64,000 nucleotides of DNA from Lophium mytilinum (lineage: Eukaryota; Ascomycota; Dothideomycetes; Mytilinidiales; Mytilinidiaceae). How positions within the stretch are numbered: the stretch's first letter is position 1; each line of letters opens with the position of its first letter. This document shows, in pieces, positions 1 through 17,033 of this stretch. The DNA is taken from NCBI GenBank assembly GCA_010093605.1, contig MU004198.1:6456-70455 (forward strand). The letters run 5' to 3'. The position numbers and the translations under genes were made by a program. Under the pieces are notes generated by a model, which was not told where the DNA came from, did no database searches, and saw nothing but the letters and a program-made list of their open reading frames with translations.

Positions 1-2030
1 CTAATTCTTAAGTATAAGGCTATTCTTATACTAAACCCTTTAAGTAATTTCTATTCTATACTTATATACTCTATAGCCTCTCTATATCTACCTTAAGCTA
101 CTACTATAGCTTATAAATTAAATTAAAGTTAATAGAATGCTATTATATTATATTTTAAGTATTATTCTTTATATATATACTCTATTTTATATTATAGTAG
201 TTAAATATAGTAGTATAAGGTTATACTATATATAATACTTAAAAGTTAATTTTCTTTATATTAAACTTACTTCTCTCTATATAACTCTAACCCTCTAGCC
301 TCTATAATAAAAGTAATTAAGGACGCTAGTAGATCTATTACTATTAATAATCTATTACTATTAATAAGGTTTCTAATTATATTATAGAGGTAGGTAAAAG
401 GTAAATAGAAATAAACTAGATACTATTAGATATTTTAAATATAACTTCTAGTAGGAAATAAAAAACTAGCTACCTATACTAAAGTTAACTAATTATACTA
501 AAATATACGCCTTATTAGGGGGTATTTACCTAATATCTAGAGAATTATAACTATTACTTATAATTTTACTACCCTTACTAATATAACTATAATTCTTTAA
601 AGTAACTAAACTAAACTATAGTCTATAGTTAGTCTTATATATAAATATATAGTATAAGAAATAGTAATTATTACTACTAATAAGTAGATTAAGAAGATAG
701 CTATATAAGTATAGAACCTTACTATAGAGTATAGAGTAGTTTAGTTAATTATTTAAAACTTTTAGAAATATATACTAGTAACTTCTAGCTACCTCTAATA
801 AGGTAGATATAGTAGCTAGTAATATAGCTAAGTTAATTAATAGTATCTAGAAGATTATCTCTAAGATATCTACTCTTAAAACCTATATACTACTATTAAA
901 GTGCGCGCTTACTACTACTAATAATATTAATAGAGTATCTAAAATAGTTACTCTCTTTAACTAAAGTCTCTAGAAGATTATCTTTAAAGTATCTACTACT
1001 AAAATCTATATACTATACTTAATAGGCGTAATTACTACTATAAATAATATAGAAAGCGTATCTAATAAGGTTACTACTCTAGATAAGAGCCTTTAAGAGA
1101 TAGTCTTTAAGATATCTACTATTAAAACTATATTATAGATAATACTTCTTAAAAAATTATTCTTAGTAGTCTTAATAAAGAATACTAGCTATAGGCTAAT
1201 TTTATATAATAGTATTAATTTTATACTAGAATATAAGTTTATACTTTATAATAATATAACTCTATTCTTCTAGTTAGTATCTTTTTAAGATAGTATAGAT
1301 TTAGAAGAACTACTCTCTTACTCTATAGTACTACTTATATATACTAGATCTACTTTTATCTAATATAAACTATTTTTAGTACTATAAAGAAGCTTATTTT
1401 ATATATACTCTTAATAAATAAACTAATTCTATTAGTTCTATTTATAGAATAAATAGCCTATATTCTAAGTATATTTTTTTAATTATAAGTTAATTAGATA
1501 GTTATATAGAGAAGGTAATATCTAAGTCTAACTATTACTAGAAGCTAAATATAGATAAAGTAAAGTATTTACTTAACTATAGATAGACTTCTATAATTCT
1601 TATTAAAAGTTCTCTAATAGTAGAAGTATAATTAAAGATAGATATTATTCTAGTAAATAAGGTATACTATCTATATATTACTATATTATATATCTAGTTA
1701 AATAGCTAAGAAAACCTAAATAAGAACTAGATAACCTAGTACTAACTAGGGGAAATTATAAAGTATATATTCTAGGTATAGTAATAGATAAGCCTTAGTT
1801 ACTTAGTTATATTTTTAATTAATATAATCTATATTTTCCTTAGACCTAAAAATACGCGTAAAAAAAGTATATTATTAATGTAATAAGTCTATTAAGAAGT
1901 AAACGCTACTCTTATACTTAATAGAAGCCTAGAAAAGCTTTATACTAAAACCTTATACCTAGAACTTTTAGTATATCTTATTTTAAGCCTATAGGCTAGG
2001 AGACTTTAGACTCTTTAAGAGGGTGTTCTT
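1..2030. repeat. AT-rich, RIP-like block of decayed repeats
   Basis: Almost pure A+T sequence dominated by TA-rich words, with hardly any C or G until about 2030, where composition returns sharply to normal. This is the signature left by repeat-induced point mutation on repeated DNA in Pezizomycotina. No open frame of useful length survives on either strand, and I could not assign the parent element to a family. It extends past the left end of the window, so its full size is unknown. The adjoining HET-type gene relic starts right at its edge. Confidence 0.8.
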
Positions 2031-3534: not shown

Positions 3535-5326
3535 CTAAGCTCTTTGTGTCAACTTCACATGTAATTCCGCCTTCTCCCACAAAATGAAAATCTTGTTCCG
3601 GTCCATCCAGTCCTGATCTTCCGGCAAAAGTTCGAGATCAAAGTTCCAAAGCAATTTGGCCATAATGAGGCGCATCTCTGCCCACGCTAAACTGTTCAAT
3701 ATGTCAGCATCACGATGTCCTCCCTCTACCCAGAAAGAACGAGGGCTTACTTCTTCCCTAGACAGTTTCTAGGTCCATAAGAGAACGCCTGTGCCGCTTT
3801 CTTATGATCCCCGTCATACTTCGGATCGCCCAACCACCGCTCGGGCATGAAAGAATCCGGATCCCGCCACATGCGCTTGGAGTGATGCGCTGCCCAGGCT
3901 GTGACGCCTACCTCCGTCTTCATGAGTAGACGAGTCAGCCATGTAATACAAAAGTCAGGTCATTGTGGATAGCTTACACCCTCAGGAACAAAGCGGCCGC
4001 ATACGACCTCTCCTGCTTTCGGCGCAATCCGCGGGAGCGCAGTTGGTGCTGGTGGAAACATGCGCAGACCTTCTTCGATGCAAGCGTTCAGATACTTCAG
4101 CTGGCCGACGGAGACGATGGACATGTCTTCGCTTGATTTGAAGGTGGTGCGGATCTCGTTCTTTAGGATTTCGTAGACTTCCGGGCGTTGCAGCATGAAA
4201 TACGTCATTCCTGTAAGCACTGTAGCCGTCTAATCATGGACGGTGTGAGTACAGTACTTTCTTGAAAGTGGAAACAGAAGCAACCTACCGTCTCACTACC
4301 CGCCAGCACCAAAATCAGCGTACTCTCATTCAGCTCATCGGCCGACATCCCCTTCTCCCCCTTCTCTCTCAAGATATAGGACATGAAATCCTTCCGATCC
4401 GTTTGCATCCTTACCCGCTCCTGCGCCTTATCTGCACTCCACTTCGCATGATTAGTCCTCACATCTTTTAAGCTCTGCGGAATCAGCATCTCCAGCAGCT
4501 TCTCAATGACTGGGAAGATGCGCGTCAAACGCATGAACTCCATCATTTTGATATAATCGAACGTGACCGCTATCCAAGGATGCAGCTTCCCGGACTCAAT
4601 GCAACCGAATGGATGCGCGAAAGCAAGATCGCCGATAAGATCAAAGGTCGTAAAGTTGAACCACATGGAGATGGGGACGACGCCTTTCGCGGAGCCGGAT
4701 ACTTGCTTCTGGAGACCGCTGATGAAGCTGGTAACGTACTGGAGGAGGAAGGGCTCTTGTTCTGCGAGAGCTTTTTCGGAAAAGGCATGAGATTGGAGCT
4801 TGCGGAGGCGGCGATGGTCCATTTCGTTGGCCATGATGCTGTTTCAATATCAGTGATCAACGAGCGTCCTGGATGAGTAGATCGAGAGCGGCATTACATG
4901 TTTGGAGCTCCAGATGGAGTGGGGCCATAGAATGAGTAGTCTTTCTCGAAGGTCTTGGTGTGTTTTGCCTTGATATGCCCGTAAATATCCTCCCAAGCCT
5001 GGTCGCTATCATACGAAAGGTAATTTGGCGAAACCCGAACCACTTCGCCGTACTTGTCGTGAAGCTCTTTGATAGCATATGGAAGTCTCCCTTTGAGAGC
5101 ATGGATAGCGGATGGGACGAAGCATGAAGCCCATAGTTTCGGGCCAGGGTAGGATCGCAAGGGGTGGAAGAAGACGTTGTAGATGCAATAGGTGACGGTA
5201 TAGAGCATGGCCTAGATTCAGTATGAATATCAAGTATTAGCCGTCAATGGACTTGGTGCGGCGAATATGGCTTCCTACCGCGCCAATGCTCAACGCAAGA
5301 ATGTTCGCGTACTGCGCCCAATGCAT
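3535..5326 (-). CDS. cytochrome P450 monooxygenase
   Basis: Six exons, complement of 5279-5326, 4898-5211, 4289-4838, 3978-4229, 3751-3917 and 3535-3691, give 495 residues, a normal length for a microsomal fungal P450. All introns are GT-AG and the phases agree. The N terminus is a hydrophobic anchor followed by F-F-H-P-L and Y-P-G-P-K-L. The I-helix motif AGSETT lies near residue 300, the ExxR motif (EGLR) near 353, a P-E-R-W block near 415, and the haem-binding FSYGPRNCLG near 432 with the ligand Cys. It should be an ER-bound haem-thiolate monooxygenase; the substrate cannot be read. A small first exon (48 nt) was chosen because its ATG and splice join restore the membrane anchor. No polyketide or peptide synthetase lies near, so a pathway role is open. 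Confidence 0.92.
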
Positions 5327-6096: not shown

Positions 6097-7365
6097 TCAG
6101 CGTCCATGTTCACTTTCCCACTCCTCCATCTCCACTACTCCTAGCTTCTCCGTTTCCTCGGTCTCTATAGCAAGATAATCGATGAGGTGAGTGATATCCT
6201 CCCTTCTCCGGCGCTTTCCACGTTCCCAAGCGTCAACCCATTCCTCCGGATCCGCCCCCACACCGTCTTTCCAGTGCCCAACGCGCCCCAGATCTATGAT
6301 TCGGAAGCTGGGATGTTCCATAGAACGATGACAGAGTGGTTGTGATAACGGGCCAGGTTGAACAACGATATTGCGCGGATATGATGAATTATGAGCGAAT
6401 CCCAGGGTATGTAGCCGGTCATAGAGCTTCCGGATCCCGTCACTAATCAAGTAAGCATGATAATCCGGAAAGAAGAGCACGCGAGAAACAAAGGGGAAAA
6501 GGACTTACATCCAGTCCGGTTGTACTCCTTCCCAGACGTGACTAAATGGATCTCCCAGTCGCCGACCGCAATCCTCCATGAGAAGACTTCCACATTTCTG
6601 CTTCTCGCATAAAGCAGGCAGCTCCTTCAAGCTAGCTTTTTCCAGCTCCTCAGCGGTCACATTCCCTTCCCACTCATAATATCCGTAGAACGTTGGCACA
6701 ATAGGCTCTATGCGCACCATCCGCTCTTCACCATCTCCATCCTTCTCTTTCTTTCTTTGCTTCTTCCCTCTACCCTTCACTTTCTTCAAACCCCCCATCA
6801 ACGTCCGATACATCCCTTTCGTCAGCTTCGTATACGTCTTTGCTTCCTCCCTCAACATCTCACAAGCATCCTCCCAGTCGGAGTCATCCTCCGTGCCATC
6901 CACCTCATCGCTTTCGGCCTCCGGGTAGTTCACATGCCCCAGCTTCGCCATCACCGTGACCGCAGCACCTGGCCCGGCGAGCCGCTCCGGAAGGACGAGC
7001 GGCGCGCGGTACACCGCAGCATGCGACCCCATACCGGCAAGGTTGAGAAAGTTGATAGTGAGCCATGCGACGCCAGACTCCGGTACCGCATCCTCTTTTG
7101 CAAGGGGCGGGTACACCCGCACATATCGTAGCAGGTTCGCGGGCTCTTCTGATCGCGATTTGGCAATGTGGTGCGTGATTCGTGCCTTGTTCGCAAGACA
7201 GGCTACGTGCTGGCTTGGCAGTACTTCGTCGTACAGCTGGGAATTACCGGTGTAGAACATGTGCCGTACGGAGGTGCATGTGTGCGGATCAGAGACTATG
7301 AGGGTGGTTGGTAGTTGCCGATTGCGTAGGAAGTCTTCGAATTTGGGGGGTAATGCGGACTTCAT
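6097..7365 (-). CDS. kinase-fold protein, likely pseudokinase (paralog 1)
   Basis: Two exons, complement of 6509-7365 and 6443-1 to 6097 (6097-6442), joined over a 66-bp GTAAGT/ATTAG intron, give 400 residues. The ATG at 7365 was chosen because the following residues (L-P-P-K) align with the paralog at 15430. A kinase-like order of motifs is visible: glycine-loop-like GMGSHAAVYRA near 111, a Lys in V-M-A-K near 141, a hinge-like LLMEDCG near 260, a catalytic-loop equivalent H-N-S-S-Y-P-R-N at 303-310, and D-L-G in place of DFG at 336. The usual catalytic Asp (as in HGDLHPRN) is Ser here, while Asn and the DFG-type Asp remain, so classical phosphotransfer is doubtful. A Lys/Arg-rich acidic insert lies mid-protein. 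Function is unknown. Confidence 0.85.
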
Positions 7366-7904
7366 TCCGCCGGTTCGTAAGTATCGACTATGTCGTAGAA
7401 GCAGAAAAAACTTGGGAGCGAGATAGGGAGGGTTTAGTCCGATTTGTAGGCCCAACGTCCAACGAAGAAAGAAACCGATTTACTTCTTATTGGACTGTCT
7501 CGGGGTCTCGTTTGACATCCGTTTGTTACCATGTGGGATGCGCTTATGATCTTCCCGGAACACGAACATAACGCAAAAGACGATGCAGTAGAAATCAGCT
7601 GGTTCTCAATGAGCGCGAGCGACAGTCATGGCGCCGGTAGAAAGGTATTGATTAACAAAAAGATAAAAGTACAGCTTTGAAAGAGAAATGGCAAGATATT
7701 GGCTGAATGCGACCATGCATACTCCGATACTCTATCTTGTCTCATAGAACCGTCACGAATATGTACAAAGAAAAATGGACGAGTGAGTTCGGCCAGTCGC
7801 TCGCACATCAAGCGGGTAGTGCCCAATCTGCGGGAGGTATCCGTAGGGCTCTCAAGCAGATTCCAAGAAAGAAGCCCGAGTGCAGTGATCCTAAGATCGC
7901 AACA
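7366..7904. other. intergenic, no gene seen
   Basis: Gap between the start of kinase-like paralog 1 and the 3' end of the lectin gene. Only short frames without recognisable products are present. Confidence 0.6.
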
Positions 7905-10552: not shown

Positions 10553-10882
10553 TCACCGGGGTAGCCCATGAAGACGAAAGCTCATCTCTTCCTCCAGTGG
10601 AGCCAGAATCTGCGCTTCGGTTGTTTTCGAGAACTCCTCGTTCTTCAAGCTTGCGTTAGGGTTGACAAAACAGTTCAGACAGTATCCTAACGCAGAATGA
10701 AAGGCGAATTATGAACCCTCCCCGGCTTCTTCTCTCTCCCGTAGCACCGCCTGGAAATCTGACATCTTGTTCGGTTGATTGTTTGCACTGGGATCCTCTA
10801 ATTTCCGGAGGGCTTCGATGGGGCGCCCGAAGATGATTTCGAATAGCATAATGCCAAGCGCAAGCAGCTTGGACGAGTCGTT
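10553..10882 (-). pseudogene. DUF7580-type kinase-like gene, 3' part
   Basis: On the minus strand this frame reads N-D-S-S-K-L-L-A-L-G-I-M-L-F-E-I, then G-R-P-I-E, and ends with L-A-P-L-E-E-E before TGA at 10553-10555. That order is the C-terminal half of the fungal DUF7580 (kinase-like) domain. One in-frame TAA at 10709-10711 interrupts it and fits a CAA-to-TAA change. Upstream the gene is cut at 10882 by the hAT element and continues at 14695. Reading across the insertion with one copy of the 8-bp duplication keeps the frame (Q-P-C-N-D-S-S-K), so the element entered a coding exon. DUF7580 proteins often accompany fungal incompatibility genes; their function is not established. Confidence 0.75.
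10875..10882. repeat. 8-bp target site duplication, left copy
   Basis: GAGTCGTT directly before the left terminal inverted repeat of the hAT element; an identical copy follows the right terminus at 14695-14702. Eight-base duplications are the hallmark of hAT insertion. Confidence 0.92.
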
Positions 10883-10903
10883 CAGTGATGTTGTTGGACT
10901 GGA
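10883..10903. repeat. hAT left terminal inverted repeat
   Basis: 21 bases beginning CAGTGATG match exactly, in reverse complement, the right end at 14674-14694. The first bases fit the CA-rich start common to hAT termini. Confidence 0.93.
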
Positions 10904-11429
10904 GCAATTTGGACTGGATCCGGATGGAGGCACCTGAAAAAAGCATTGGACTGGATGGAGTTTCTATTTGGCCCGCGTGGATTAAAGGTTGTAGATGCTC
11001 TAGAAGCTCTAATAGTTAGTAGTAATATATATATACTAGTATTAAGAATAGTATTTTAATATTTATAAGGCTTAGGCGTCTATAATTCTTAGCTTTAATT
11101 AGTTTATCTATATAAGCTAACTAACTAGCCTATAACTATATACTTACTCTTAGCTTTACTATTTTATACTTACTATTCTCTATATACTTACTATAAACTA
11201 TATACTTACTATCTTCTATATACTTTCTATTTTACTTAGCTATTAGCTAATAGCTAAGAGATTACCTACTATAGGTTTTAATATTCTCTATTAACCCTAT
11301 TACCGCCGCTATAGTAGAGGATTACTCTTAATATAGTATTATTCTTATACTTAGTACTTACCGCCCTGCTATCCCTATTACTAATAATATTATCCTCGCC
11401 TCTAAATTAATTAACCCCGCTCGCGATAT

Positions 11430-14400
11430 TAATATTAATATTAATAGTTTTTATATTAATAGAAAGGCGTATACCCGGTATAAGAATAGAATAAGAGACC
11501 CTTAGTATATAAAATAACGCACGTTAAGTATATAGAATTAGGGTAAGAATATCTACCTTATAGAGGAAGATAGTAGATCTAGTAGATCTAATATCTACTA
11601 TTACTACCTCTATAAGAAATTAAAGTAAAAGTAGAATCTTTATATTATTTCTAAAGGTAGATTAATAGCTATAGATTACCTTATAAAAATATATAATCTA
11701 GATAAGAAGATAGGTATACTATAGATATTATAGTAAGGACCTCTACTAAAGTATAATACTACTAAGGTATTTAGTATTATATTTAACTTTAAGTAATTTA
11801 AATAGCTACTAATCTAATAGATTATCTATTATTATATTACCTTCTTCTAATTTAAAAATATATACTTCTATTAGGTATTAAGCTTTCTAGTACCTAGTAT
11901 TAATAGATACCTTCTAAAGGCACGTAGTATAATATAGAGTTAGGTAATTAACATGTAGAAAGAAAGGAAAGCTATACTAAAGTAAGAGCTTCTTAATATA
12001 TTATACTCTTATCTACGCCTAAATATATTATTATTTAATATTATATATATAGATTACTATCTAACTTTATATAGATAAGAGCTTTAAGATATATATAGCG
12101 CTATATCTATCTTCTTTAATCTCTAGATATTACTAAATAGATATGCTATTAATAGCGTATGCTTCTATTTTATTAGTAATACTAGATAATAATATATAGC
12201 TATTGCAGCTCTTTAAGAGATCCTTAGTAATTATAATAGAGAAAATATTATATATAGCTTATTAGTAGTTATATAGAACTATAGTATATAAATAAATATT
12301 AGCTTCTTTATATATAATAATATAATAAATAATAATAGCGCTATAGATGCTATTCTACAGGCACTCTATCTATAGATAATAGCTAAGTAATAAAAAGCCC
12401 GTTAATTATAATACTTTAGCTATATTATTAACCTCTATATATAGGACTTTATTATTAGAAAGAATATAGATAAGATCTATTAATAGATTAAGAGGGCATA
12501 TATAAATTAAAACTATAGAGAAGTTTAAAGGCTTTAGAAGTAGTATAGAGTAATTAGATTAATATAGAATATTATCTAATATATCTATAATAGCTCTTAG
12601 CGCCGGGGCTTCTTCCGCTATATATAAAAAGGTAGTCTTTTTATAGAATAGAACGGCCCTAAGGTATATATTTATTCTTTCTATTTTATTAATTAGCCTT
12701 ACTATTTTACTATATACTTTCTATTTTACTATATACTTTCCGCGTTTATTCTTTCTATTTATTAATTAGCCTTACTATTACTATTTAGCCTTACTATTAC
12801 TATTTAGCCTTACTATTTTACTATATATACTTTCTATTTTACTGCGTAGGCCTTAGTCCATCCTTTCTAATATAGAAAGGATAAAAACGGGAAGTATATA
12901 GTAAAATAGAAAGTATATAGTAAAATAGAAAGTATATAGTAAAATAGAAAGTATATAGTAAAATAGAAAGTATATAGTAAAATAGAAAGTATATATAGTA
13001 ATAGTAAGGCTAAATAGTAATAGTAAGGCTAAATAGTAATAGTAAGGCTAAATAGTAATAGTAAGACTAAATAGTAATAGTAAGGCTATATAGTTCTACT
13101 AAAGCTCTACTAACTAGTTATACTACTATGCGCGTACTACTATACTATATATACTAACGCGTTACTAGCTTATCTAGAATAACTAAACGTAATAGAATTT
13201 ATTATTTATAGCTATTAGCTACTTTCTTAACTACTATAAGCGCGTTTAAGAGTTTTATAAGACGTATATTTCTCTAGATATAGCTAAAAAGCTTAAAAAT
13301 AATAATATTCTTATAGAAACCTAATAGTAATAACTTAAGTACCTCTATATAAACCTTAAGCTATTCTATAAAGCTACGCTAATAGTAGAGAGCTAGAAGC
13401 TATTACTTACTAATTATTTTATTACGCTTAACTAGCTAGTTAATTACCTTAATAAGTTAAAGAATAACTTTATAGATCTATTATAAAAGGCGCAATAATA
13501 TATTAAAATTAATACGTATTAGTATCTCTCTAATTATACTTTAGTAGTATAGAATAAAGCTAATATATACTATCTCTTAACTAATTAGAAATTATCTATA
13601 TACTACGCTGCTATTATCTTTAATCTATTACTTAAGATAAGATAGTTTAATAATTAGAGTAACTACTCTATTAAGAAGAACTATATTAAGATTATAAAGG
13701 ATTTTATTAAATAATACTAGTAGAGCAGCTATTATAGTAAAATAATATATCTTTAGCCTAAACTATCTAATTCTAGGCTAGCTTTTTCTTCTTAATAGCC
13801 CCGGGTATATATATCTATATAAGATTATAAGCAGCTTAAGCTTATATATAATAATAGTAATAATAGTAATAGTAATACTACTATAGCTATACCTAATTTC
13901 TATAAAGAATATATTAATACTTTACCTCTATTACTTGCGCAGGTGCAAGGCCGGAAGGGTACTAATAACGGGCAGCCGCTTAGCGTTAATAAGATAATTA
14001 TATAGTAGAATAATAGATATAAATTCTAGCTAGATATTACCTAATTTATACTTAATATTCTTATAGTGCCGCTAATATTAGATAACTATAAAAGGCTATT
14101 TAGCGGAGCATCTATTATACTAGATAAGTATTGCTAATATTTTAGAATAGATATAGTTAAGATAAATAAGTACCTAAGGTTATTATATAGGCTACTAGTA
14201 AAGAACGCCTTTAATAATATAGAATATATAGAGTTACTTAGTATATTATATACTTTACTATAAACGCTTACTAATATAGTAATAGTATAGTTAGAAGTAT
14301 TATAATATAAAGAGGTAGAAAGAATAGATAAGAAAGAGAATAAATATATAATAGAAATTAAAGAAGCTATACTAGAAGAAGTAGTAGGTATAATAGGCAC
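11430..14400 (+). pseudogene. hAT transposase remnant
   Basis: The plus-strand frames retain the order of a fungal hAT transposase although many Gln and Trp codons now read as stops. Recognisable pieces are a hydrophobic core with a G/S-H/Y-I-I-N-L-like block near 12410-12450, an I-I-Q-Y-I/S-S/R-R-G-F-F-like block near 12560-12620, S-I-Y-Y-A-A-I-I-F-N-P-L near 13590-13630, and the C-terminal dimerisation region near 14030-14230. There N-I-L-I-V-P, R-L-F-S-G-A-S and a later Y-L-R-L-L-Y match the usual L-D-I-L-S-I-P / R-V-F-S-G-A / C-L-K-H-W-Y pattern. A repeat-rich stretch (12660-13090) interrupts it. It is not functional. Confidence 0.75.
12696..13090. repeat. 19-bp tandem repeats forming a large inverted repeat
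   Basis: From 12890 a 19-bp unit (AAAGTATATAGTAAAATAG) repeats about five times, followed from about 12998 by about four copies of another 19-bp unit (TAATAGTAAGGCTAAATAG). The same words occur in reverse complement at 12696-12840, so the whole block can fold on itself around a small palindrome at 12870-12892. It lies inside the transposase remnant and breaks its continuity. It may be a later insertion or expanded subterminal repeats. Confidence 0.8.
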
Positions 14401-14673
14401 TAAGAATAAGATAGAAATAGAAAGAATATACTAAATAGAAAGGCTAAATATAAACTATATAAAATAGAAAGGCTATATATAGACTATATAAAATAGAATA
14501 AATATAAACTAACTATAACTATAAGATTTCCTATACTAATTACTTTAGGTAATTAGCTAACTGCTTTAGGTAATTATATACTACTTTAGCCTTACGTAGA
14601 TAATCCTAGAGCTCCTGGAGCTCTATAGAGGTTTCTGGTGGATCGCGTGGATTTAGGGCCTCATCCAGTCTAG

Positions 14674-14694
14674 TCCAGTCCAACAACATCACTG
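14674..14694. repeat. hAT right terminal inverted repeat
   Basis: Exact reverse complement of 10883-10903; ends CATCACTG and is followed at once by the target duplication. Confidence 0.93.
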
Positions 14695-14702
14695 GAGTCG
14701 TT
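14695..14702. repeat. 8-bp target site duplication, right copy
   Basis: GAGTCGTT, identical to 10875-10882. Confidence 0.92.
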
Positions 14703-14990
14703 GCAAGGTTGAGTGTTTTGGCGGAAAAGTGTGGTGGTGTTTGGCTTGTTTTCGCGGATAAAATATAAGTGCTTGACGGCTACTATCGTTCCGGCCATAG
14801 CGGAGCCATCTTTTGTATAAAGAAATATGAGATTAGTCTTGCTCCAGGAATATTAAAGCCATGGTGTATAACGGAGTTAAAAAGGAGACGATGTGAGTGT
14901 AGTTAATAAGGTATGTACTTCTTAGGGCTAAAGGCACTCTTCTAGCTCACACAGCAGCATGGGCTAAGCGTACGGTAAATTGTCTCACTA
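14695..14990 (-). pseudogene. DUF7580-type kinase-like gene, 5' part
   Basis: Minus-strand continuation of the gene at 10553-10882. The frame shows L-R-Y-T-P-W-L, Y-S-W-S-K-T-N-L-I-F-L-Y and later V-K-H-L-Y-F-I-R-E, the pattern in DUF7580 proteins around the T-P-W-L / W-S-K block. In-frame TAA codons at 14853-14855 and 14877-14879 sit where Gln is expected (CAA to TAA), and further stops follow upstream, so the 5' limit at about 14990 is approximate. No start codon was identified. Confidence 0.65.
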
Positions 14991-15429
14991 AAACCCTTCT
15001 CTGTGCTCTTGGTCTTGAAGCGAGTCTCTCCGACGCTTCAATCTACTACGACTCGTCACAGAGGCTCCTGTACTCATTTAACCCAATCCCTCGCATAGTA
15101 TTTTAAATAGTAAAGTACGGCATGTCGGACTACTAGTGAACTCGTCAACATGGCGGACACGGATTAAACGTGTATCCGCTATCCCCAGTTGCTAGTAGTA
15201 TGTCGGAGCCCCTCAAATAATGGTAGGAAGTGTACGGATAGATATGGCAAGGGACCGTAAAAGTACCTGAATTCCGTCTCCAGCATGCGTTGAGGTCGGT
15301 GAACGCTTAGTAATATCCGAGTGCTGTTTTTTTCTTCCTGTTTCAAAACTGTGAATTACTCCATTAAGCTTTTTCGACGGGACATTTCTCTTCAACCAGC
15401 AAACGTACCCCACCTCCTGCACAGCGATT

Positions 15430-17033
15430 ATGCCAAAGCCCTTCCCGCTCCTCACAGGGCAGGTAGCCGCTGGAAAGGAAGATGCAATGTCAGAACCATC
15501 CTCCGAACCAGAGACGCACCCGTACGACAAGACTTTGCCGCCGAAACTCGAAGAATGCCTGAGCGAGGGCTCCTTTCCCACCCTCCTACTCGTCCACGAC
15601 CCTGATAACTGTACGTCCATAGAAGTGGTCAAGTGGCTTTCAGATACGACAGTAGAGATTTCACCTACTGATGCACTATACTCGCATTGTACTGGCGTTA
15701 TCAAAGACCAAGGAAACGAGACAACAGTCGCACCAGACAATCCTGATACAAGCAAAGTCGAGTTGAAGCCGTTCTTCGAGCGACGAATTCCGGCGTTGCT
15801 TGGCCCTTGGCCTCCATGGCAACATCGTCATGAAGCAACATTGACGCTATCGTTCCGCAACCTTGTCGGGGTGGGCCACCACGCTGCTGTTTACCGCGCT
15901 TCTCTTAAGCTCTCCGATGTAGTGGGTGTGAACGGCCGATCAAAGAGCGGTGAGGTACCGGTGATTGCAAAGCTGAACTACCTCGTATCCGACGACAACG
16001 AAAACAACGCCCATATGCTGAAGAAGGAGGCAAACACGTTTCAGAAATCTATGGGAATGTGTTCATTGCAGCAGGAGGCATATCTTTGCCTATATCATAG
16101 CAATTTAATAGAGGGGGTCACTACACTATCGCATAGGGGACACTGCGTTCCCCCTGTCCTAGTTACGCCGCCAGTTCTCCCTAAGTTTTTTGGCTACTAT
16201 AAATGGGGTCCCAAGAGCTCGGAACTGGGACGGCGATGCAAAATCCTACTTATGGAAGATTGTGGACAGAGCCTTGAGACATATATGGAGCTCAACGACG
16301 AAGAGAGCATACCAGTAGCATGGATGTAAGTTTTCCACAGAGCAATACGGAGGGTGAGATTTCTAACCATACTCAGGGATGAGATTAAGGGCCTTTACAA
16401 GCGACTCCACGGTACCGGCTTCATGCATGGCTCAGTATGGCCCCGTAACATCACCATACAGCCCGGCCCGCTATCCTCTCCACCGTCGGCCCGATCCATG
16501 GATATGCCGAGCTTCAGAATCATAGACCTGGGACGCGCTAGGCACGTCCGCGATTGCAAGCGTCAACCGGTGTTCCGAGAGCAACAGCAGCGTGAAAAGC
16601 TCTTCCTAGCCAATCGTTTACCGGTCCACCATGAACCCGTGGTGGATCATAAGGAAGTTGGTACAGATACCGAGGCTGATCCAGCCGCCAACGAGAAGCC
16701 CACAGGGAGTGGAGAGAACAATGGCAAAGACATCGAGACTGGAGCTGAAATTACTGCAGAGAAGACTCAAAAACAAACAACAGAACAGATTAGGTTGAGG
16801 GTGTCGGAAACAACACTGATACAGCGACGGACTAGAAAGATGCTCACGAGACCGAGGCTGTGGAGGCTCTTGTGGGCGAAGAGCCGTTGGATCCAGTCCA
16901 TGAAGTCCCTGCGGGTCCCGATTCTACTAATGTCAAGGCTTCAACGAAGACAAAGGCAGAGTTCCTAGATGGTCCTGATGGTAGCAATGTGGAGGCGGCT
17001 CCAAAGAAGCAAAAGGTTGAGGGAATGGAGTAG
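15430..17033 (+). CDS. kinase-fold protein, likely pseudokinase (paralog 2)
   Basis: Exon 1 is 15430-16325 and exon 2 starts at 16377 after a 51-bp GTAAGT...CTAAC...CTCAG intron at the same position as in paralog 1. A second possible start lies at 15487. Motifs match paralog 1: L-P-P-K-L-E near the N terminus, G-V-G-H-H-A-A-V-Y-R-A, I-A-K-L, L-L-M-E-D-C-G, H-G-S-V-W-P-R-N and R-I-I-D-L-G-R. Again Ser replaces the catalytic Asp. The open frame stops at 16968 with a basic tail. A different frame from about 16830 reads an acidic tail ending at 17033 and is more natural; a short intron (GTTGAG...ACTAG, about 16793-16834) or a frameshift would reach it. The acidic tail contains K-K-Q-K-V near its end. 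Function unknown. Confidence 0.75.

Follow-up and report, generated by a model that had tools for sequence, protein, structure and literature searches.

How does a fungal transposon come to have ends that can be read to the base when nearly everything between them has been destroyed, and into what kind of sequence did it insert? The locus that raises these questions lies in a 64,000-nucleotide stretch of the Lophium mytilinum genome (assembly GCA_010093605.1, contig MU004198.1, positions 6,456 to 70,455), here called the window, to which all positions below refer unless a contig is named. An element of 3,812 bp spans 10883-14694 and is bordered on both sides by sequence related to DUF7580. It is very probably a member of the hAT superfamily that inserted in a DUF7580-type gene or pseudogene, duplicated 8 bp on insertion, and was then altered by repeat-induced point mutation (RIP), which spared its ends. 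An earlier note on this DNA had given the span as 10553-14990; the element does lie inside that interval, but the interval takes in flanking sequence on both sides.

The left terminal inverted repeat, CAGTGATGTTGTTGGACTGGA, occupies 10883-10903 on the plus strand, and its counterpart lies at 14674-14694 on the minus strand; the two are 21 bp long and identical at 21/21 bases. Directly outside them are the two copies of an 8-bp target site duplication, GAGTCGTT, at 10875-10882 and 14695-14702. The inverted repeat and duplication that the earlier note took to mark the ends of the element are both as it described them. With up to 3 mismatches allowed, the 21-mer is found at 2 sites in the window, as against none in 100 dinucleotide shuffles, and at 9 sites in the 43.2-Mb genome, as against 1 for a reversed control pattern. 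The first 100 bp (10883-10982) are without RIP alteration (GC 50%, CA+TG = 18, TA = 1) and carry GGACTGGA three times, at offsets 13, 28 and 65, the first of these within the inverted repeat. The last 100 bp (14595-14694) are slightly altered (GC 0.50, TA/AT 1.00, (CA+TG)/(AC+GT) 1.20). The core between them, 10983-14593, is RIP-saturated: GC is 0.24, and TA/AT and (CA+TG)/(AC+GT) are 1.60 and 0.12, whereas elsewhere in the window they are 0.70 and 1.22.

DUF7580 corresponds to Pfam PF24476, for which a search of the genome gave 18 places at E<=0.001, 17 of them above cut-off and one of them the left flank of the element. The match there, at 10583-10915, scores 28 bits against a cut-off of 27 with one stop read through, and extends 33 bp past the insertion site; the left piece alone scores 17.9 bits and the right piece alone has no PF24476 match. 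Each flank was also searched separately against 12 of the 18 places (L020-L031). The same open paralog, L025, was the best of the 12 for both flanks, and the matches are collinear. The right flank (14703-14921, minus strand, the upstream half) aligns with residues 108-168 of L025 at 38% identity (E 4e-8), and the left flank (10556-10874, minus strand, the downstream half) with residues 183-290 at 44% identity (E 6e-26), in a match that runs from 10879 to 10556. Between the two matched pieces are 14 residues in L025 and 14 in the window, in a single frame when one GAGTCGTT is counted. Because they share their best paralog, one frame and a gap of 14 residues, the flanks are the two halves of one gene, cut at the insertion site. 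That the transposon entered a minus-strand DUF7580-type gene or pseudogene by cut-and-paste, duplicating 8 bp, is shown by the pair of GAGTCGTT copies and by the alignment with L025. The ends, the duplication, the DUF7580 match and the L025 alignment together support the proposal of a hAT-type element with defined ends within a DUF7580-type gene. That the flanks join into one reading frame once a duplication copy is removed is correct as to the single frame and the two halves of one gene, but that frame stays open over no more than 107 codons (right flank 50, left flank 57), between in-frame stops at 14853-14855 and 10709-10711. Both halves resemble a DUF7580 paralog of the same genome; they differ from it in that the window gene is a pseudogene, with extra stops and an unrecognisable 5' third. 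A search of the literature available found no paper on fungal DUF7580.

Other copies of the element were sought in the window and 16 fetched stretches of the genome, with up to 6 mismatches allowed at the ends; the genome-wide search behind this scored 40 of 116 candidates, and further copies are possible. Eight two-ended copies were identified, including that in the window. Three others are large, on C3 (12.4 kb), C16 (20.6 kb) and C6 (12.6 kb), and each is interrupted by AT-rich inserts. Two are of about 500 bp (on C2 and C16), and two are short (204 bp on C10 and 142 bp on C15). One-ended matches at C6:638592 and on C9 and C11 were left out of this count. A duplication is recognisable in 6/8 copies: it is exact in the window, large C16 and C6 copies, has one mismatch in the C3 and C2 copies, and has two in the small C16 copy. 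Those of the three other large copies read GGTGGCGG twice, CTTCTTAA twice, and CTTCAGCG/CTTTAGCG. Every one of the 4 mismatches seen between duplication copies in this family is a CA/TA or TG/TA difference, the kind that RIP would be expected to make. No duplication was recognised at the two short copies, the 204-bp copy having a 7-bp near-match shifted by one base. The interior of this copy is nearer to the sequence at C6:638592 than to the window element, so it may belong to a sister family. The remark in the earlier note that such clear borders are rare in RIP-degraded islands does not hold within the element's own family, but it agrees with one study of another RIP-active fungus, in which inverted repeats and duplications could be identified for no DNA transposon family other than miniature inverted-repeat transposable elements (MITEs) (PMC4522978).

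The other copies are 69-81% identical to the window element. A move of the window copy after its alteration by RIP was considered and is unsupported: no sister copy was found among the candidates scored, since the matches of greatest length in the rest of the genome have 70-74% identity, and the closest segment of roughly 500 bp has 81%.

The hAT superfamily includes hobo, Ac and Tam3 as well as fungal hAT-like elements, and its ends begin CAGTG, with a consensus of CA(G/A)NG. Assignment of the window element to it is well supported by sequence features of several kinds: the ends, the duplication, motifs just inside the ends, fossil codons and a peptide that four copies have in common. The ends, CAGTG...CACTG, agree with the consensus, and the duplication of 8 bp is exact here and in two of the other large copies, with one mismatch in the third. 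A subterminal motif, [GA]GA[CT]T[GA]GA, occurs 2-4 times within 150 bp of each of 12/12 ends in six copies, one of the occurrences lying within the inverted repeat, and is absent from the flank read beside each of these ends (up to 300 bp). The window copy was compared with the other three large copies for transversions, which are not caused by RIP. In block 1 (11483-12682) the distinct transversion positions fall 82:43:31 on window positions with mod 3 = 0, 1 and 2 (p=1.2e-6), and in block 2 (12983-14182) they fall 34:85:51 (p=6.8e-6); the block limits were picked after the counts were known, so these p-values flatter the periodicity. Neither end shows it (left p=0.79, right p=0.22), nor does the middle (p=0.88), and the stretch 11183-11482, with counts of 23:16:16, lay outside the test. 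Such period-3 clusters can be read as fossil codons of a transposase, with the third codon base at mod 3 = 0 in block 1 and mod 3 = 1 in block 2, both on the plus strand, that of block 1 being taken from block 2. The composition of the core and this periodicity show that RIP, which struck the family after insertion, converted nearly every CA/TG in the interior to TA and destroyed the transposase frame; the enzyme itself we infer.

Near the right end, a peptide at 13952-14260 (plus strand), aligned among the four large copies, is conserved in 4/4 of them with a mean column identity of 78%, and probably represents a remnant of the C-terminal hAT dimerisation region. All four share a double stop at one place in the alignment. 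Transposases of the hAT superfamily carry a WW motif, and the double stop stands where they have it; TGG turns into TAG under RIP, which would lead from WW codons to a double stop. When stops are read as Q/W, the best Pfam family for the peptide is the hAT dimerisation family PF05699 in the C16 copy (E 0.02) and the C3 copy (E 0.27), both below cut-off; six control readings, three each from the window and the C16 copy, have no Pfam match. The element shares with the superfamily its 8-bp duplication, short inverted ends, repeated subterminal motif and probable C-terminal dimerisation remnant. It differs in that no intact transposase frame was found in it and in that the profile match, below cut-off in other copies, is absent here. 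In PMC4763223, the 8-bp duplication and the C-terminal hAT domain are given as distinguishing hAT features, and subterminal repeats are described. The length of the element falls within the 2,480-4,236 bp reported in PMC4994206 for hAT-like elements of F. poae.

RIP is saturated inside all of the four large copies and fades across the outer 50-125 bp at 8/8 ends. Counted per 25 bp and averaged over these ends, CA+TG starts from 1.8-3.4 in the flank, rises to 5.1 at 0-25 bp, and falls to 2.4-2.5 at 25-75 bp, 1.0 at 75-100 bp and 0.4 at 100-125 bp, with 0-0.75 further in. The first 50 bp hold 5-11 CA+TG at every one of the eight ends; from 50 to 100 bp, GC is at least 48% at three (both window ends and the right end on C16) and 28-38% at the other five. 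The spared margin is 50-100 bp or slightly more, and is widest in the window copy. In the 498- and 507-bp copies alteration is found chiefly in the middle, and the 204- and 142-bp copies show none. What sets the margin seems to be the boundary with unique DNA, because a copy end on C9 with AT-rich DNA on both sides is altered up to its tip, and because the hAT side is spared at none of the six junctions between large copies and AT-rich inserts; the insert at C3-left has a single 50-bp bin with 8 CA+TG beside its junction. In all four large copies, that of the window included, this fading of RIP has kept the inverted repeats, subterminal motifs and duplication legible. An edge effect where the repeat meets unique DNA may be its cause, and we treat the spared ends as such an effect in one family and not as an established rule.

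Several results weigh against the account given so far. The best PF05699 score, 15.1 bits, is below the curated cut-off of 21.4 bits. The window copy has no Pfam match, whether read in six frames with X at stops, in five pieces, or with stops as Q/W, and the C3, C16 and C6 peptides have none when stops are given as X; part of the C3 copy scanned in six frames with X at stops, and blocks 1 and 2, the frame of which is too damaged for the catalytic residues and BED zinc finger of the superfamily to be read, likewise gave nothing. With stops as Q/W the C6 copy matches PAS_8 instead (E 0.039). A search of PDB sequences with a single peptide piece gave no match, and a search with the four-copy profile gave a single irrelevant row, a viral envelope chain at E 0.79 that matches the profile's tail by chance. 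A genome-wide search for PF05699 listed two places, neither at this element. In this genome, no empty site was seen and no second copy of the flanking DNA was found among the candidates scored. It could be argued from the lack of a database match above cut-off, and from the PAS_8 match of one copy, that the element belongs to some other superfamily of DNA transposons with 8-bp duplications; against ends that begin like those of hAT elements, a hAT dimerisation domain as best Pfam family in 2/4 copies, and a double stop at the WW position in 4/4, we regard this as highly improbable. Quite possible, though we would not presume it, is that the DUF7580-type gene had decayed to a pseudogene before the transposon arrived and that the insertion had no functional effect. 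The earlier note held that the insertion broke the gene, which the sequence bears out only in part: in-frame stops at 10709, 14853 and 14877 lie inside the matched stretches, with further stops beyond, and a tblastn search of the right flank (14695-15700), run to E 10, found nothing for residues 1-107 of L025 beyond a chance match of 9 residues to another part. With stops on both sides and no recognisable 5' third, the insertion may not have been what killed the gene. The stop at 10709 lies in a flank with no RIP signature over 1 kb (TA/AT 0.62, (CA+TG)/(AC+GT) 1.39), so RIP leaking from the element is no easy cause of it. The right flank, on the other hand, is RIP-like over about 0.5 kb (14695-15194; TA/AT 1.43, (CA+TG)/(AC+GT) 0.84) and borderline over the next 1 kb (0.94 and 1.03); its extra stops may stem from this and may postdate the insertion, and that at 14877 replaces a Q of the paralog, as a CA to TA change would give.

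The spared ends also admit another explanation, that the end sequences of the copies are too divergent for RIP to recognise and that there is no edge effect. At the right end the spared 100 bp do carry more transversions per site (0.133-0.146) than the altered 50 bp beside them (0.100), but the altered DNA 150-400 bp from that end is the most diverged of all (0.21-0.23), and on the left, divergence in the spared 100 bp (0.097-0.100) does not exceed that of the RIP-saturated DNA next to them (0.099-0.118). Since the altered neighbours are equally or more diverged, at the left end and at 150-400 bp on the right, lack of homology explains the spared ends poorly; the C9 end, altered to its tip between AT-rich DNA, also speaks against it, and we think this explanation unlikely. 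Returning to the edge effect, a bolder form of it would be that RIP in this genome stops short of the border between repeat and unique DNA. The 50-125 bp margin of the hAT family would then cover the inverted repeats and subterminal motifs, so that the transposase dies and ends are left that a foreign hAT transposase might move, and copies of up to about 200 bp, being margin only, would escape RIP. This generalisation is offered as a speculation about which we are rather doubtful; movement of the element ends by a foreign transposase is possible.

Other repeats give a mixed answer on any general edge rule, and two further families, with spared margins of about 40-90 bp and about 20 bp, count against it. 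In positions counted within each of the two stretches, homology at L051 to the longest other copies ends near 4892 and RIP at about 4800-4850; at L049 homology ends near 4420 and RIP near 4400, with hardly any margin. PMC4522978 gives a usual RIP length limit of 400 bp and describes one long terminal repeat (LTR) element altered inside but not in its LTRs, and PMC2621366 describes one class of ribosomal DNA repeat altered chiefly in central regions. A point against the rule is that PMC2621366 also reports RIP to rise slightly towards the ends in one repeat family. CA-to-TA saturation and unaffected short copies are what is seen in RIP-inactivated fungal transposons and RIP-escaping MITEs; the present family differs in that the first 50 bp keep CA/TG at 8/8 ends, with fade-out by 125 bp, and in that alteration is concentrated in the middle of its two copies of roughly 500 bp. 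A literature search on RIP and repeat edges found no paper, and we do not claim the edge effect as unpublished. The insertion of a transposon is in itself ordinary, and the spared ends are its curious detail. Since its borders are exact, its target frame known and its copies varied in length, the locus could serve for calibration, as the start and stop of RIP can be measured relative to the repeat edge. If the margin were general, it would explain how dead fungal transposons retain readable, and possibly movable, ends.

A number of other observations were made on repeats and hAT sequences. Between the fossil coding blocks, 12686-13106 consists of AT-rich tandem units with inverted copies, the arms reaching 69 nt, and similar sequences match many places in the genome. 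Six 5-kb stretches (L048-L053) have in common a repeat, some 3.4 kb long and 92-95% identical, that is strongly RIP-altered in composition. Window positions 1-2000 form an AT-rich island (GC 0.21-0.22) that looks RIP-altered; a genome search with its right edge (1500-2700) matched only itself, so the edge was unusable for comparison. The two PF05699 places listed elsewhere, L018 and L019, were tried as relatives of the element and rejected. The tblastn match of L018 (E 5.6e-6) is discounted, as it lies within a repetitive YLSIYL stretch, and the best for L019 is E 0.066. L019 (C21:388234-388434) encodes a hAT dimerisation domain (PF05699 E 2.9e-9) within a 192-aa open frame and, having no convincing match to the window element, belongs to a different hAT family.

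Two open frames flank the locus, at 6505-7479 (minus strand) and 15355-16968 (plus strand). Pfam gave no match for 6505-7479 or 15355-16329, and the kinase-like look of the two frames is only an impression. By eye they are alike near LPPK.E..L....PT.L.V.DP..CTS, and they may be paralogs.

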